Below the pieces are notes generated by a model. It was not told where the DNA came from, did no database searches, and saw nothing but the letters and a program-made list of their open reading frames with translations. Shown piece after piece: positions 20,405 through 39,525 of a stretch of DNA of 64,000 bases (position 1 is its first letter; each line of letters starts with the position of its first letter). Both the position numbers and the translations under genes were made by a program. The stretch is from Thiosulfatimonas sediminis. GTDB taxonomy: Bacteria > Pseudomonadota > Gammaproteobacteria > Thiomicrospirales > Thiomicrospiraceae. The stretch is taken from contig NZ_AP021889.1 of assembly GCF_011398355.1 (NCBI RefSeq), positions 682,001 to 746,000 of the forward strand, given 5' to 3'.

Positions 20405-21616
20405 ATGAAAATCGCTGTCGCAGGAACTGGATACGTTGGCTTGTCTTTAGCCGTTTTATTGGCACAGCACCATGAAGTGGTGGCACTGGATATTGTGCCG
20501 GAAAAGATTGATCTTCTAAATAAGAAAATCTCGCCAATTGTCGATGTGGAAATTACCGATTTTCTGAACAATAAGACGCTGAACTTCACAGCGACCTTGG
20601 ACAAGCAACAAGCTTATCAAGATGCAGAATTTGTTGTAATCGCAACGCCAACCGATTACGACACGATTACCAATATTTTTAATACCAAAAGCATTGAAGC
20701 GGTGGTTAAAGATGTGATTGAAATCAATCCAAACGCCACCATTGTCATTAAAAGCACCATTCCGGTCGGTTATACGGATGCGTTGAAGCAACAATTAAAA
20801 ATTCAACATCCAACAGTAAACATTGAAATCTTTTTCTCGCCCGAGTTTTTACGTGAAGGCAAAGCCCTTTACGACAATCTCTATCCATCACGCATTATTG
20901 TCGGTGAGCAAACCGAGCGTGCCGAAGTTTTTGCCAATTTATTGGTCGAAGGTGCAGCAAAACCGGCCGCTGAAATTCCGGTCTTGTTTACCGACGCCAC
21001 CGAAGCCGAAGCGGTCAAACTGTTCTCAAACACTTATTTAGCCATGCGTGTGTCTTATTTCAATGAATTGGACACTTACTGTGAAACCCACGGTTTAAGC
21101 ACCAAACAGGTCATCGAAGGGGTTGGTTTAGACCCACGTATTGGCGCGCACTATAACAATCCAAGCTTTGGTTACGGCGGCTACTGTCTACCAAAAGACA
21201 CAAAACAGTTGTTAGCGAATTTCCAAGACGTACCACAAAACATGATTCGCGCGATTGTCGATGCCAACACCACGCGCAAAGACTTTATTGCCGATCAAAT
21301 CATTGCCAAAGCCAATGCGTCACAAAATCCAGTGGTGGGCGTACACCGCCTCATTATGAAACAAGGCTCTGACAACTTCCGTGCCTCGGCGATTCAAGGG
21401 ATTATGAAACGCATCAAAGCCAAAGGCATTCAGGTCGTGGTTTATGAGCCAGTCTTAACAGAACAAGGTCAAACAGACTTTTTCCACTCCAAAGTCATTG
21501 CAGACCTCAATGAATTTAAGGCCGTGAGTAACGTGATTGTCGCTAACCGCTTGGTCGACGAAATCATGGACGTGCAAAACAAAGTCTACACTCGCGACTT
21601 GTTTGGTAAAGACTAA
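20405..21616 (+). CDS. ugd: UDP-glucose 6-dehydrogenase
   Basis: 403 aa. It oxidises UDP-glucose twice to UDP-glucuronate with NAD. The Rossmann motif [14 protein letters not shown] is at the N-terminus; STIPVGYT and [12 protein letters not shown] mark the middle; the catalytic cysteine sits in [14 protein letters not shown]. The shape is that of the short E. coli/Klebsiella Ugd group. It starts 29 bp after glmS and precedes the UDP-glucuronate 4-epimerase, so together they would make UDP-GlcA and UDP-GalA for the polymer. Confidence 0.95.
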
Positions 21617-21620
21617 CGCT

Positions 21621-21650
21621 AATTTTGAATGGTGAATGTTTAATGATGAG
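21621..21650 (+). repeat. heptamer-periodic repeat, copy 1
   Basis: Reads as consecutive degenerate 7-mers: TTGAATG, GTGAATG, TTTAATG, ATGAGTG. It is in the opposite orientation to the other copies (their complement is CATTCAA/CATTAAA). It contains the start codons of the four-helix-bundle gene. Confidence 0.65.
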
Positions 21651-22020
21651 TGATAAAAACAATATTCAAGCTAAATCATTCGCTTTTTCGGTAAGAATTG
21701 TCAAGTTGTATCAGTTTTTGTCAAAAGAGCATAAAGAATATGTTTTATCTAAGCAGTTGTTAAGATCCGGCACTTCAGTGGGTGCAAATGTAAATGAGGC
21801 ACAAGCAGCGCAAACAAAAGCAGATTTTGTTTCAAAAATGAGTATTGCGAGCAAAGAAGCTCGTGAAGCCAAATATTGGTTAGATTTACTTTCTGAGACG
21901 CAATATTTAAATAAAAACGAACCCCATGTTCAAAGTTTATTAGAGCAAAGTGAAGAGCTCATAAAAATTTTAACGAGTATCGTTAAAACTGCACAGCAAA
22001 ATTTAAAGAATGAAAAATGA
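21643..22020 (+). CDS. four helix bundle protein (23S rRNA intervening-sequence protein family)
   Basis: About 125 aa. Recognised by the pattern FAFSVRIVKLYQFL, the central QLLRSGTSVGANVNEAQAA motif and the C-terminal EAREAKYWLDLL helix, all hallmarks of the S23/IVP four-helix-bundle family. Proteins of this family are often carried as extra genes inside rRNA intervening sequences or accessory loci; their function is not known. Start ATG 21643 or 21646. It lies between ugd and the epimerase, flanked on both sides by heptamer repeats, and its stop overlaps the next gene's ATG. Confidence 0.92.
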   Translation: MMSDKNNIQAKSFAFSVRIVKLYQFLSKEHKEYVLSKQLLRSGTSVGANVNEAQAAQTKADFVSKMSIASKEAREAKYWLDLLSETQYLNKNEPHVQSLLEQSEELIKILTSIVKTAQQNLKNEK

Positions 22021-23114
22021 ACCAAAAACTAAACATTAAAAACTCAACACTAAACATTCTAATAACCGGTGCCGCTGGCTTTATCGGTTTCTATTTGATT
22101 CAGGCATTAAAACAATACGGCCATAATATGGTCGGCATTGATAATCTGAATGACTACTACGACCCGCAACTTAAACTAGACCGTCTAAAGGCGCTAGGTT
22201 TTAACGGCGAAGACGTCGAGAAAATGGCCGAAGGCAAGCATTTAAAATTAAACATTCAAAATTTAGAATTTATCAACTTGGATTTGGCAGACCGTGCGGG
22301 CATAGAAAACTTGTTTAAAACGCATCAATTTGATGTGGTGGTCAATCTTGGGGCGCAAGCAGGCGTGCGTTATTCGATTGATAATCCGCACGCCTATGTC
22401 GATTCTAACCTTGTTGGGTTTGTGAATATTTTAGAAGGTTGTCGTCATAGCCAAGTCAAACACCTAGTCTATGCCAGCTCCAGCTCAGTGTATGGCATGA
22501 ATGTCAAACAGCCGTTTAGCACCGATGACCGAGTCGATTACCCAATTAGCTTGTATGCGGCGACCAAAAAATCCAATGAGCTGATGGCACACACCTATAG
22601 TCATCTTTACGGCATTCCAACCACAGGTTTACGTTTCTTTACCGTTTATGGTCCGATGGGGCGCCCAGACATGGCGTACTTCAAATTCACCAAAGCGATT
22701 CTTGAAGGTAAAACCATTGATGTCTACAACAATGGCGAAATGCAACGCGACTTCACCTACATTGATGACATTGTCGAAGGCGTGATGCGAGTAATGGAAC
22801 GACCACCAAGCTTGGACGATGAAAAATTAATCATTCAAAATTCAAAATTAAACATTACGGCGGCCAAAGCGTCTTACAAAGTTTACAACATTGGCAACAA
22901 TCAACCAGTGACCTTGAGCCGTTTTATCACCGCGATTGAAGATGCTTGCGGCAAAAAAGCCAAAGAAAACCTCATGCCCATGCAAGCGGGTGATGTACCG
23001 ATAACCTATGCCGATGTGGATGATCTGATCGCCGATACCGGTTTTAAGCCAAGTACCTCGATTGAAGAAGGCATTGGTAAGTTTGTGGAATGGTACAAAG
23101 AGTATTACAAGTAA
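22017..23114 (+). CDS. NAD-dependent epimerase, probable UDP-glucuronate 4-epimerase
   Basis: 365 aa, longer than the usual 335. A short-chain dehydrogenase with Rossmann motif GAAGFIG (residues 18-24 region) and catalytic SSSSVYG and Y-x-x-x-K in SLYAATKKSNE. TTGLRFFTVYGPMGRPDMAYFKF is diagnostic of the UDP-glucuronate epimerase group. Three segments are encoded by heptamer repeats and read in one frame as related peptides: the first 13 residues (QKLNIKNSTLN), LKLNIQNLEF near 76-86, and EKLIIQNSKLNIT near 270-282. They explain the extra length. A divergent second copy of its C-terminus lies at 24245-24424, after an inserted nuclease gene. Confidence 0.9.
   Translation: MNQKLNIKNSTLNILITGAAGFIGFYLIQALKQYGHNMVGIDNLNDYYDPQLKLDRLKALGFNGEDVEKMAEGKHLKLNIQNLEFINLDLADRAGIENLFKTHQFDVVVNLGAQAGVRYSIDNPHAYVDSNLVGFVNILEGCRHSQVKHLVYASSSSVYGMNVKQPFSTDDRVDYPISLYAATKKSNELMAHTYSHLYGIPTTGLRFFTVYGPMGRPDMAYFKFTKAILEGKTIDVYNNGEMQRDFTYIDDIVEGVMRVMERPPSLDDEKLIIQNSKLNITAAKASYKVYNIGNNQPVTLSRFITAIEDACGKKAKENLMPMQAGDVPITYADVDDLIADTGFKPSTSIEEGIGKFVEWYKEYYK
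22024..22062 (+). repeat. heptamer-periodic repeat, copy 2
   Basis: 7-mers AAAAACT, AAACATT, AAAAACT, CAACACT, AAACATT, CTAATAA in succession. It forms the first codons of the epimerase gene. Confidence 0.65.
22242..22275 (+). repeat. heptamer-periodic repeat, copy 3 (inside the epimerase gene)
   Basis: AAAATTA, AACATTC, AAAATTT, AGAATTT in phase with the reading frame, encoding LKLNIQNLEF. It interrupts an otherwise conserved region between GKH and the INLDLAD strand. Confidence 0.65.
22823..22857 (+). repeat. heptamer-periodic repeat, copy 4 (inside the epimerase gene)
   Basis: AAAATTA, ATCATTC, AAAATTC, AAAATTA, AACATTA, encoding the extra segment KLIIQNSKLNIT before the YKVYNIGN strand. 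Confidence 0.65.
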
Positions 23115-23136
23115 ACCTATTAAATTGAAACCTCGC

Positions 23137-23181
23137 CATTCAAAATTAATCATTCAAATTAAAAATTAAAAATTAAAAATG
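23137..23181 (+). repeat. heptamer-periodic repeat, copy 5
   Basis: Between the epimerase stop and the YhcG start: CATTC then AAAATTA, ATCATTC, AAATTA, AAAATTA, AAAATTA, AAAATGA. The last unit supplies the ATG of the nuclease gene. Confidence 0.65.
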
Positions 23182-24183
23182 ACAACGCTGACGACACAAT
23201 TAGACTTTTACCGCGACATCAAAGCGATGCTTTACAGTGCGCGTAACAAAGCCTACCAAGCCATTAATCAAACCATGACTCAAGCCTATTGGGAGATTGG
23301 TTGTCGTATTGTCGAGCAAGAACAACAAGGTCAAGCCCGCGCTGAATATGGCGTCATGCTCATTAAAAATTTGTCTGACGAACTAAGCAAAGAGTTTGGC
23401 AAAGGCTTTTCGGTTGATAACTTAAAAAATATGCGTCGTTTTTACCAGTGCTTTCCAAAAAGTGAGACGGCGTCTCACCAATTCACCCTAAGCTGGTCAC
23501 ACTATATTTTTCTAACCCGCATCAACAACACCAGCGAACGCAGCTTTTATGAAGTCGAAGCCAACAACAATCATTGGAGTCTAAAAGAACTCAAACGCCA
23601 ATTCAATTCAGGCTTATTTGAAAGACTTCAACTCAGTACCCAAAAAGACAAGGTGCAACAGCTTGCCGCACAGGGTCAAGTGATCGAAACACCCGGTGAT
23701 TTGGTAAAAGACCCCTACATACTAGAATTTGTCGGTCTGCCAATTCAAGCCAGTTACAGCGAAAGTGAATTAGAACAACGTCTCATCGACAAACTTGAAA
23801 GCTTTCTGCTCGAATTAGGAAAAGGCTTTACTTTTGTAGCACGACAAAAAAAGATCACCATTGACGAAAAACACTTCTATATCGACCTGGTTTTTTACAA
23901 CCGCCTGCTAAAGTGCTTTGTTGTGATTGACTTAAAAATTGGCGAACTCAAACATCAGGATTTAGGTCAACTGATGATGTACGTCAACTACTTTGATCGC
24001 ACAGAAAAACAACAAGACGAAAACCCAACCATTGGCATTGTCCTCTGCAAGGACAAAAGCAAAGCTTTAGTTGAAATGACCTTGCCAGAAAACAACAGTC
24101 AACTATTTGCTAGCCAATACCAAACCCTACTGCCCAACAAAGAAGAGCTCAAAGCACTTCTAAAGGAAGCAATCGATGATTAA
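23179..24183 (+). CDS. PDDEXK nuclease domain protein (YhcG/DUF1016 family)
   Basis: 334 aa. The N-terminal DUF1016 domain carries AYWEIGCRIVEQEQQGQARAEYG-type sequence and NLKNMRRFYQCFP. The C-terminal PD-(D/E)XK nuclease domain has FYIDLVFYNR and VIDLKIG, giving the D...D-x-K core, followed by GQLMMYVNYFD. The family is widespread in accessory DNA and linked to defence or mobile elements, with DNA cleavage or repair suspected. It is an insertion between the epimerase and the flippase, with a broken epimerase 3' end directly downstream and heptamer repeats upstream. Confidence 0.93.
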   Translation: MTTLTTQLDFYRDIKAMLYSARNKAYQAINQTMTQAYWEIGCRIVEQEQQGQARAEYGVMLIKNLSDELSKEFGKGFSVDNLKNMRRFYQCFPKSETASHQFTLSWSHYIFLTRINNTSERSFYEVEANNNHWSLKELKRQFNSGLFERLQLSTQKDKVQQLAAQGQVIETPGDLVKDPYILEFVGLPIQASYSESELEQRLIDKLESFLLELGKGFTFVARQKKITIDEKHFYIDLVFYNRLLKCFVVIDLKIGELKHQDLGQLMMYVNYFDRTEKQQDENPTIGIVLCKDKSKALVEMTLPENNSQLFASQYQTLLPNKEELKALLKEAIDD

Positions 24184-24244
24184 TTGTGTTGCGCACCACA
24201 TTGTTAGTTACGTGCTTTGCCTAAACGCCCTCATTAAAGGCGTG

Positions 24245-24424
24245 TGTGGCAAAAAAGCCAAAGAAAATCTGATGCCCATGCAAGCCGGTGACGTGCCGAT
24301 TACCTATGCCGATGTGGATGATCTTATTGCCGATACGGGTTTTAAACCAAGCACCAGTATTGAAGACGGGATTGGAAACTTCGTTGAGTGGTATAAGAAA
24401 TACTATAAATTGGCGAAAAAATGA
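24245..24424 (+). pseudogene. 3' remnant of a second epimerase gene
   Basis: Starting with CGKKAKEN the frame repeats the last 56 or so residues of the epimerase at 22017-23114 with only a handful of amino-acid changes. By eye about 28 of 168 bases differ, nearly all at third positions. The sequence before 24245 has no match to the epimerase. Its TGA overlaps the flippase ATG (ATGA at 24421), showing that the original epimerase was translationally coupled to the flippase. Read as the end of the older, displaced allele. Confidence 0.85.
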
Positions 24425-38467: not shown

Positions 38468-39525
38468 TTTTAGTAACAGGTGGTGCGGGTTATATTGGTA
38501 CCCATACTTGTGTTGAGCTTTTGGAAAGTGGCCAAGATGTTTTGGTGTTGGATAACCTCAGCAACAGTTCTATCACTTCACTTGAGCGTGTTGCTGGAAT
38601 TGTGAATGTTGATTTATCCATTTTGAATGAAAGTGAATTACTTTGCTTGGCTCGCAATGACGAGAGATTGGTTTTTGTTGAGGGTGATATTCGTAATCAA
38701 TCCTTATTGCGAACGCTTTTTGAGCAGTTTGAGATTGATTCGGTGATTCATTTTGCTGGCTTAAAAGCAGTGGGTGAGAGTGTTGAAAAGCCGTTGATGT
38801 ATTACGACAACAATGTTTCTGGAACGGTTGCTTTGTTGGAAGTGATGGCTGAGAAAAATTGTAAAAACATAGTGTTTAGTTCATCTGCAACCGTCTATGG
38901 AGATCCGGCCTCTGTACCGATTTCAGAAGACTTTCCGTTATCGACAACTAATCCGTATGGTGCGTCTAAATTGATGGTGGAAAATATTCTGCGTGATTTG
39001 TCTATCAGTGATGATGCTTGGTCGATTGCATTATTGCGTTATTTCAATCCTGTGGGCGCGCACGAATCTGGTTTGATTGGTGAAGACCCCAATGGCATTC
39101 CCAATAACCTGATGCCTTTTGTGGCGCAAGTGGCGGTGGGTAAGCGTGAACAGTTGAGTGTATTTGGTGATGATTACGATACCCATGATGGCACGGGTGT
39201 GCGGGATTATATTCATGTGGTGGATTTAGCCAAAGGGCATTTAAAAGCGCTGGATGCTTTGGAAAAGCAATCGGGCGTTTTAACCGTTAATTTGGGGACG
39301 GGGCAGGGCTATTCGGTCTTGGATATGGTTAAAGCCTTTGAAAAAGCCTCTGGTCGTGCTGTGTCTTATCAAATTGTGCCTCGCCGTCCGGGTGACGTAG
39401 CGAAGTGTTATGCCAATCCCGATTATGCCTTTAACACGTTGGGCTGGCGTGCTGAATTTGGAATTGAAAGAATGTGTGCCGATGCGTGGCGCTGGCAATC
39501 GCAAAATCCGAATGGTTATGCTTAA
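38464..39525 (+). CDS. galE: UDP-glucose 4-epimerase
   Basis: 353 aa. It interconverts UDP-glucose and UDP-galactose. Rossmann motif [17 protein letters not shown] at the N-terminus, [10 protein letters not shown] and the catalytic Tyr-x3-Lys in [11 protein letters not shown], and [19 protein letters not shown] typical of GalE. It starts by overlap with the hipA stop, so its translation may now depend on the toxin operon. A broken second copy of the gene's start is 1.7 kb upstream. Confidence 0.96.

Follow-up and report, generated by a model that had tools for sequence, protein, structure and literature searches.

Heptamer-periodic, AT-rich runs lie in and around a nucleotide-sugar epimerase gene within a 64,000-nt stretch of the closed 2.72 Mb genome of Thiosulfatimonas sediminis (NZ_AP021889.1, positions 682,001 to 746,000; hereafter the window, counted from its first letter), and they partly encode the epimerase itself. 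Where do such runs come from, and how can a gene take them up and stay readable? The genes concerned follow in the order ugd, S23, epimerase and yhcG. The S23 (23S_rRNA_IVP) four-helix-bundle gene (21643–22020, forward strand) exceeded the score cut-offs of both PF05635 (92.7 against 33.8 bits) and TIGR02436 (105.4 against 24 bits); it starts at ATG 21643 or 21646, and its longest reading frame opens at TTG 21625. In the sequence, its stop codon overlaps the start of the NAD-dependent epimerase gene (22017–23114, forward strand; ATG 22017; PF01370, 191.9 bits) within the tetranucleotide ATGA at 22017–22020. Further along the forward strand lie yhcG (23179–24183, ATG 23179; DUF1016_N and PDDEXK domains, PF17761 and PF06250) and a remnant duplicate of the epimerase 3′ end (24240–24424), with 82.9% nucleotide identity to the intact copy over 164 nt. 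The PDDEXK protein YhcG matched the PADLOC candidate defence family PDC-S02 with 476 bits; PADLOC gave no match for a defence role of S23.

The preliminary description reported five runs of degenerate heptamers. Tandem Repeats Finder called period 7 for four of them (21626–21654, 22024–22056, 22822–22857 and 23138–23180) and made no such call for run 3. A cyclic seven-state heptamer profile (A-H-M-A-Y-T-M), built from the window's own runs after they had been seen, recovered all five, including run 3 (22239–22275), together with an additional run 0 within ugd (20790–20828). Run 0 scored 33.7 and runs 1 to 5 scored 39.6, 41.6, 27.8, 41.7 and 52.3, respectively; the remaining window sites scored 28.1 (38597–38629), 22.3 and 18.3. 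Five window sites (runs 1, 2, 4, 5 and the ugd run) reached a score of at least 30, as compared with none in 100 order-3 Markov copies of the window. This confirmed the runs as real, with run 3 and the 38597 site borderline, since one Markov-control site reached 27.8. The 38597 site is reversed and lies within another ORF.

All runs consist of degenerate units. Run 1 (21620–21654, reverse strand, five cores) holds the S23 start codon, and run 2 (22020–22059, forward strand, five cores) encodes the beginning of the epimerase after its Met. Runs 3 (six cores) and 4 (22822–22857, five cores), both on the forward strand, are translated in frame as HLKLNIQNLEFIN in epimerase loop 1 and EKLIIQNSKLNIT in loop 2. 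Run 5 (23122–23180, forward strand, six cores) is a solo array between the epimerase and yhcG and ends in the yhcG start codon, while run 0, also forward, is read in the ugd frame in the loop before FSPEF and has two regular cores. The reversed first copy, the related peptides of the three epimerase runs (such as QKLNIKNSTLN and LKLNIQNLEF) and the supply of start codons to three genes, with the epimerase ATG abutting run 2, all stand as first described.

That description did not recognise runs 1 and 2 as a pair of inverted arms belonging to a single element that encloses the four-helix-bundle gene; arms of this kind accompany the gene across phyla. The two arms have opposite orientations and belong to one heptamer class without forming a close palindrome, and PF05635 is the only gene between them. 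We compared the ugd–epimerase spacing at 98 loci, in 18 of which (the window and 17 of the 97 others) the end of ugd could be located. The distance from ugd to the aligned epimerase start was at most 21 nt in 15 of these 17 loci, compared with 400 nt in the window, and by eye the ugd stop codon overlaps the epimerase ATG in ten located loci. The two wider junctions are those of G019, with 430 nt, and of Thiomicrorhabdus marina, a species of the same genus, where 825 nt of other DNA intervene. Because the junction is tight in 15 of 17 homologous loci, S23 with runs 1 and 2 looks inserted into it. Insertion into 23S rRNA does not apply to this element, which lies between ugd and the epimerase, and no rRNA match was found in L247.

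The in-frame runs were compared with epimerase homologues. The N-terminus encoded by run 2 is missing from the other epimerases of the genus, apart from a similar one in G019 (MKLNIQNSKLNIL). Loop 2 comprises 28 residues in the window and 19–20 in G019, G020 and G016, with 19 or 25 being the usual lengths among the 98 homologues; this comparison supports run 4 as the source of the excess of 8–9 residues over close relatives. Loop 1 has 31 residues in the window, 14 in 62 of the 98 homologues and 17 in G020, G016 and T. marina, yet the G019 loop is also 31 residues long without a scored run, and nine of the 98 homologues have 29 residues of similar make-up. As loops of 29–31 residues exist without a scored run, run 3 is not necessarily an insertion. 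In the predicted structure of the epimerase (mean pLDDT 88.3), confidence is low for residues 1–10 (58) and 271–280 (59, run 4), and run 3 forms part of a predicted strand pair. The idea of mobile repeats that invaded a gene in frame, as first proposed, is thus supported for runs 1 and 2 with S23 and for run 4, and left unsupported for run 3; the segments of runs 2 and 4 are not conserved in distant epimerases, and their periodicity is present.

Related features occur at other loci. The ugd loop with run 0 has a related longer form in G016 (L217) and Thiomicrospira microaerophila (L124), whereas the loops of G019, G020 and T. marina are shorter. In other species (L122, L124, L125, L129, L136), epimerase loop 2, sometimes loop 1, and the ugd loop contain long inserts made of different repeat-like peptides, which presumably come from known dispersed repeats. 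A Methylophaga epimerase (L136:6001–7329) has very long loops of 70 and 81 aa filled with repeat-like peptides (VIPAQAGIQ, HCEEHSDAAIQ), and its ugd also contains an insert. In T. marina, a stretch starting GTCATTGCGA occurs both at the ugd–epimerase junction and in loop 2. Elsewhere in the genus, in-frame heptamer arrays were found in a UDP-sugar dehydrogenase gene (L210:5984–6021, G007) and an asparagine synthase gene (L202:16876–16912, G019).

The epimerase runs may alternatively have arrived with a horizontally acquired epimerase, perhaps together with yhcG, rather than by insertion in place, a history that we regard as possible, with the balance somewhat against it. The diverged second epimerase 3′ end after yhcG, which points to replacement or insertion by recombination, would fit such an acquisition, as would the similar N-terminal run in G019; the distances, however, are mixed, the intact copy being nearer to G020, G016 and T. 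marina and the tail slightly nearer to G019 and two Thiomicrospira. In either case, acquisition bears on when the runs arrived and not on their nature.

We assessed whether S23 genes in general are flanked by such repeats, using period tests that are independent of the window-derived profile. Of 369 gammaproteobacterial genomes, 71 had PF05635 above its cut-off, as did 14 of 22 genomes, mostly of other phyla, reached via the epimerase loci. Flanks were read at 87 gammaproteobacterial and 29 other loci (116 oriented in total), of which 82 and 28, respectively, had at least 100 nt on both sides (110 loci). Matches below the cut-off were unused. From the 22 genomes, 29 of the 30 matches that came with a locus entered (L349 fell below the cut-off); among gammaproteobacterial matches above it, we dropped seven from G355, G362 (contig edge), G122, one further piece each from G305 and G231 (their second), and the second G368 match.

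At least one flank was periodic in 92 of the 110 loci, across several phyla, while 18 had no periodic flank at the threshold. Near flanks (0–350 nt) were periodic in 151 of 220 cases (130 at period 7, 12 at 8, four at 9, four at 6 and one at 5), compared with 23 of 207 far flanks (750–1100 nt; 14 at period 7) and 14 of 400 random windows (seven at period 7). Both flanks were periodic in 59 loci, with equal period in 55. Among the 79 of the 87 gammaproteobacterial loci that entered the lag and arm-matching tests, a lag-7 match of at least 24/35 was found upstream in 33 and downstream in 26, compared with zero or one at lags 4–6 and 8–13; the harmonic lag 14 gave 24 and 12, and random windows at lag 7 gave none of 240. 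S23 flanks in Cyanobacteria, Bacteroidota and other groups are periodic too, some at 6, 8 or 9, and at five S23 genes (L331, L344, L348, L354, L330) the units of the inverted tandem arrays are 8, 9 or 6 nt long rather than 7. The heptamer itself varies from one S23 element to another: GATTCCC units lie upstream of the S23 gene in L314, and AATCCC-type units occur in Tolypothrix L346. One of 40 S23 loci scanned, L295, sits in 23S rRNA and has stops in its S23 frame. In 14 of 20 loci scanned for tRNAs (L251, L276, L280, L285–L289, L292, L293, L296, L298, L305 and L322), S23 lies immediately before tRNA-Gln(CTG), at what appears to be an old syntenic site.

The arms of one S23 gene match each other. 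In inverted alignment, own arms had a median score of 19, compared with 10 between loci (direct orientation, 11 and 10), and they exceeded the 99th percentile of other loci in 28 of 79 cases, as compared with eight of 79 in direct orientation. At the syntenic site, represented by 15 loci (the 14 beside tRNA-Gln and L283, included because its DNA resembles that of L285 and L305), own arms scored a median of 16, a value not reached in 20,000 permutations, and crossed arms 8; in three of these loci the arms scored only 5–7. Since own arms outscore crossed arms at one site, the two arms of an S23 gene change together, via selection for pairing or conversion between arms.

Inverted pairs also occur without a gene. 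Among places with four perfect units in L202–L237 and the window, adjacent arrays less than 150 nt apart were arranged as −+ in 15 cases, −− in two, and +− or ++ in none, and the paired arrays fold into stems. Gene-less inverted doublets are present in G155, G380 and G421; in the window genome, the remaining runs are solo. Many relatives of one G155 pair are spread over the genomes of G155 and G421, which are two species of a single genus. The 20 places read in G421 were chosen for matching this pair and represent one family rather than independent evidence of order, length or cores; all are −+, with arms of 32–43 nt (median 34) and spacers of 3–17 nt, and no target-site duplication was seen among them by eye. 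In the one stretch compared between G155 and G421, three array pairs are common to both, with different spacer content at one; an automatic insert scan within this comparison returned no array, since alignment gaps cut the arms. Arms with five cores number 27 of 40 in this G421 family and 16 of 28 in L218–L231, and period-7 S23 flanks have a median of 5.1 units, the commonest length being 4–4.5. The closest solved relative, PDB 2rld, has five chains.

Arms that pair and covary at a syntenic site could instead be RNA or DNA hairpins with a part in expression or in processing, through RNase III cutting, autoregulation of S23 or translational coupling, with S23 acting as a host regulator that does not move. 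This reading has precedents in the Coxiella intervening sequence (IVS), whose stems are described as cut by RNase III (part of PMC4990558), and in the translational regulation proposed for TAACTGA repeats by MacGregor 2015 (part of PMC4679880). Nevertheless, it leaves unexplained the many dispersed gene-less copies in one genome, the insertion at an otherwise tight junction and the solo arrays in frame inside genes, and we consider it unlikely.

A search of the rest of the window genome with a three-unit pattern (at most one mismatch) yielded one array of ~35 AACACTC copies (C1:1687486–1687737) and six single sites, compared with 37 + 1 for the reversed-pattern control, which we take to reflect mostly the pure AACACTC array. 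A small ORF runs through the AACACTC array (L215:7488–7737) and translates it into a repeated peptide; a second S23 gene lies 2 kb away. Long pure arrays like this one, or the 184 nt upstream of S23 in L259, are what replication slippage would produce, and slippage may lie behind them. As the main origin, with microsatellites growing near poorly constrained genes and S23 having no role, it is very improbable: the units are often degenerate, the two arms are opposite in orientation and match, and periodicity falls from near to far flanks. The degenerate units of the window and the matched inverted arms at S23 loci likewise set these repeats apart from simple-sequence repeats. Slippage growth, which the preliminary description had offered alongside mobility, is therefore disfavoured as the main origin.

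Dispersed arrays in a genome frequently have the heptamer of its resident S23. A-rich arrays were detected in 25 of 369 genomes, 13 of which (13/25) have S23, compared with 58 of 344 among the others (p = 1.4e-4); S23 above the cut-off is absent from the other 12. Genomes with dispersed A-rich arrays had an A-rich S23 flank in 12 of 13 cases, compared with 7 of 55 genomes, at score 22; other thresholds gave 12/13 and 8/55 (20), 9/13 and 7/55 (25), and 8/13 and 4/55 (30). Between families, repeat similarity climbs with S23 identity (Mantel r = 0.19, p = 0.0005, 63 loci). A CCTCAC pattern matched 13 of 64 S23 genomes, including all four with that heptamer at S23 flanks (G358, G071, G395, G115), mostly away from S23, although some of the matched places are the S23 arms themselves. 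Four genomes without this heptamer at their sampled S23 flanks (G364, G158, G271 and G367) were rich in CCTCAC arrays as well, and such arrays were absent from G101 and G196, though flanks there hold CCTCAC or related units.

Fusion of an arm to the next protein, as in the window, recurs. Arrays code for N-terminal codons in 16 of 65 downstream arrays, with L244, L268, L283 and L291 doubtful; the in-frame reading of arrays covered 13 loci and the window. In eight further loci, picked from these 16 so that the full count of eight is no rate, stop and start codons overlap, as ATGA in seven and TGATG in L257, and the right arm that follows encodes the N-terminus of the adjoining protein. The fusion partners are MTHFR (twice), NTP_transferase (three times), RmlD, AdoHcyase and an MFS protein, and the Pfam match of the fused proteins begins at residue 12–17 in six and 24 in two. 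The window genome also contains a second case: 52 nt past the stop of its second S23 gene (PF match C1:1685568–1685834) starts an RmlD gene (PF04321, 341.9 bits) with the array-encoded N-terminus MNLTSNIKNQKS and a second array in the internal stretch KLVTQHSTSNIQH.

From the anatomy of the locus, the association with S23, the matching and covariation of arms, the in-frame fusions and the near-empty junction in relatives, we consider it probable that S23 genes form elements with inverted ends of tandem heptamers bound by S23, accompanied by gene-less derivatives; binding, mobility and the order of events are what we infer from these observations. Runs 1 and 2 would be the inverted ends, each an array of about five degenerate heptamers, of a small element with S23 (PF05635) as its sole gene. 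S23 belongs to a family with pentameric members; it probably binds an arm, perhaps with one heptamer per subunit, and probably helps the element and its gene-less array copies to insert elsewhere, with the strand chemistry done by host or other enzymes; to our knowledge, S23 has no catalytic domain. In forward orientation, the right arm is open in the frame used, after the overlapping stop and start, and a gene struck at its start would remain readable as a translationally coupled fusion. Such insertions are probably kept as coupled fusions because the right arm is readable in frame behind the overlapping start. In the window, the ugd–epimerase junction would be the place where the element came in, while solo arrays of its family would have reached an epimerase loop (run 4 and perhaps also run 3), probably ugd, and the site before yhcG.

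Several observations weigh against the S23-element reading. Its movement is deduced and not observed; three array pairs are common to G155 and G421 in the stretch compared, and some S23 genes stay at one syntenic site beside tRNA-Gln. The 18 of 110 loci without a periodic flank, the 12 of 25 array genomes without S23 above the cut-off, the six genomes in which CCTCAC arrays and the S23-flank heptamer do not correspond, and arms of period 6, 8 or 9 also fit it poorly. So do the two window arms that form no close palindrome, the three syntenic-site loci with arm scores of only 5–7, the G421 places at which the eye found no target-site duplication, and an S23 protein with no catalytic domain known to us. 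The five-unit idea has against it the commonest flank length of 4–4.5 units and the mostly four units of Xanthomonas repeats (as given in part of PMC4692102). A bolder version is doubtful in our estimate: S23 elements could be a widespread, minimal class of mobile element lacking a known transposase, in which an S23 pentamer reads five heptamers, one per subunit and each S23 its own, and mobilises its gene and doublets. Their products would include many of the orphan repeats of bacteria such as Xanthomonas, Nostoc, Beggiatoaceae and Thiomicrorhabdus and the 23S rRNA IVS, with the right arm built as an N-terminus.

REP/REPIN systems offer an analogy, with one small RAYT gene between inverted ends and many gene-less paired copies. 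They differ in that RAYT has a Y1 transposase, whereas S23 is a four-helix bundle; no Y1 (TnpA_REP) transposase was found in the window element, between whose arms PF05635 stands alone. Rickettsia palindromic elements are repeats inserted in frame in protein genes; their sequence is different, and we know of no partner gene of the S23 type.

The 23S rRNA IVS of Coxiella and Leptospira resembles the window element in placing an S23-family ORF between terminal inverted repeats, and in Coxiella tandem heptamers lie upstream of the ORF in strain-variable number (as described in part of PMC4990558, which also cites Lin 2006 for the homopentameric Xanthomonas S23). It differs in sitting in 23S rRNA, whereas the window element lies in a protein operon, with a fused right arm and related arrays elsewhere. 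Heptamer arrays of GGGAATC in Xanthomonas and GGGGA(C/T)T in Nostoc are likewise dispersed, and convergent inverted pairs number 70 and 75 in two Xanthomonas; related units stand at the S23 genes of L314 and Tolypothrix L346, as given above; the part of PMC4692102 consulted presents them as quadruplex repeats generally not tied to mobile elements, and the terms "four helix" and "23S" are absent from its main text. TAACTGA repeats of Beggiatoaceae, Cyanobacteria and Bacteroidetes likewise form arrays just before start codons and sometimes inside ORFs, mixed in some genomes with other heptamers; they differ in having one fixed heptamer, and the part of PMC4679880 consulted draws no link to S23. 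The components have thus been published separately, namely the IVS with S23, the heptamer repeats, the inverted pairs and the resemblance of S23 to Avd (PMC4990558, PMC4692102, PMC4679880 and PMC10053308, each in part). A general link between S23 and heptamer arrays was not found in the open-licence literature, outside which most subscription papers lie; the Coxiella IVS paper describes heptamers at one S23 gene.

There is no agreed cause for the heptamer repeats reported in bacteria, and for S23, whose pentamer structure is solved, the literature consulted gives no function. The proposed link would give both a testable role, the heptamers as ends of S23 elements and S23 as the protein that binds them, and offers a possible explanation of why units are seven letters long and arrays hold about five of them. 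S23 elements may thereby explain a kind of bacterial repeat long without an owner, and the locus illustrates a route by which an insertion could extend a protein in frame rather than break it.

The Avd protein of diversity-generating retroelements has a homologous fold, and PF05635 resembles it, although Avd acts with a reverse transcriptase and template/variable repeats (as described in part of PMC10053308); no reverse transcriptase was found among the five ORFs scanned in 20405–24424. We excluded the multi-copy S23 matches of G355 because they turned out to be Avd-like genes that follow a template-like repeat. This 1.5 Mb genome (L367, L368) has ten near-identical Avd-like matches, and the four copies read each follow one common template-like repeat, an arrangement like that of multi-copy diversity-generating retroelements.
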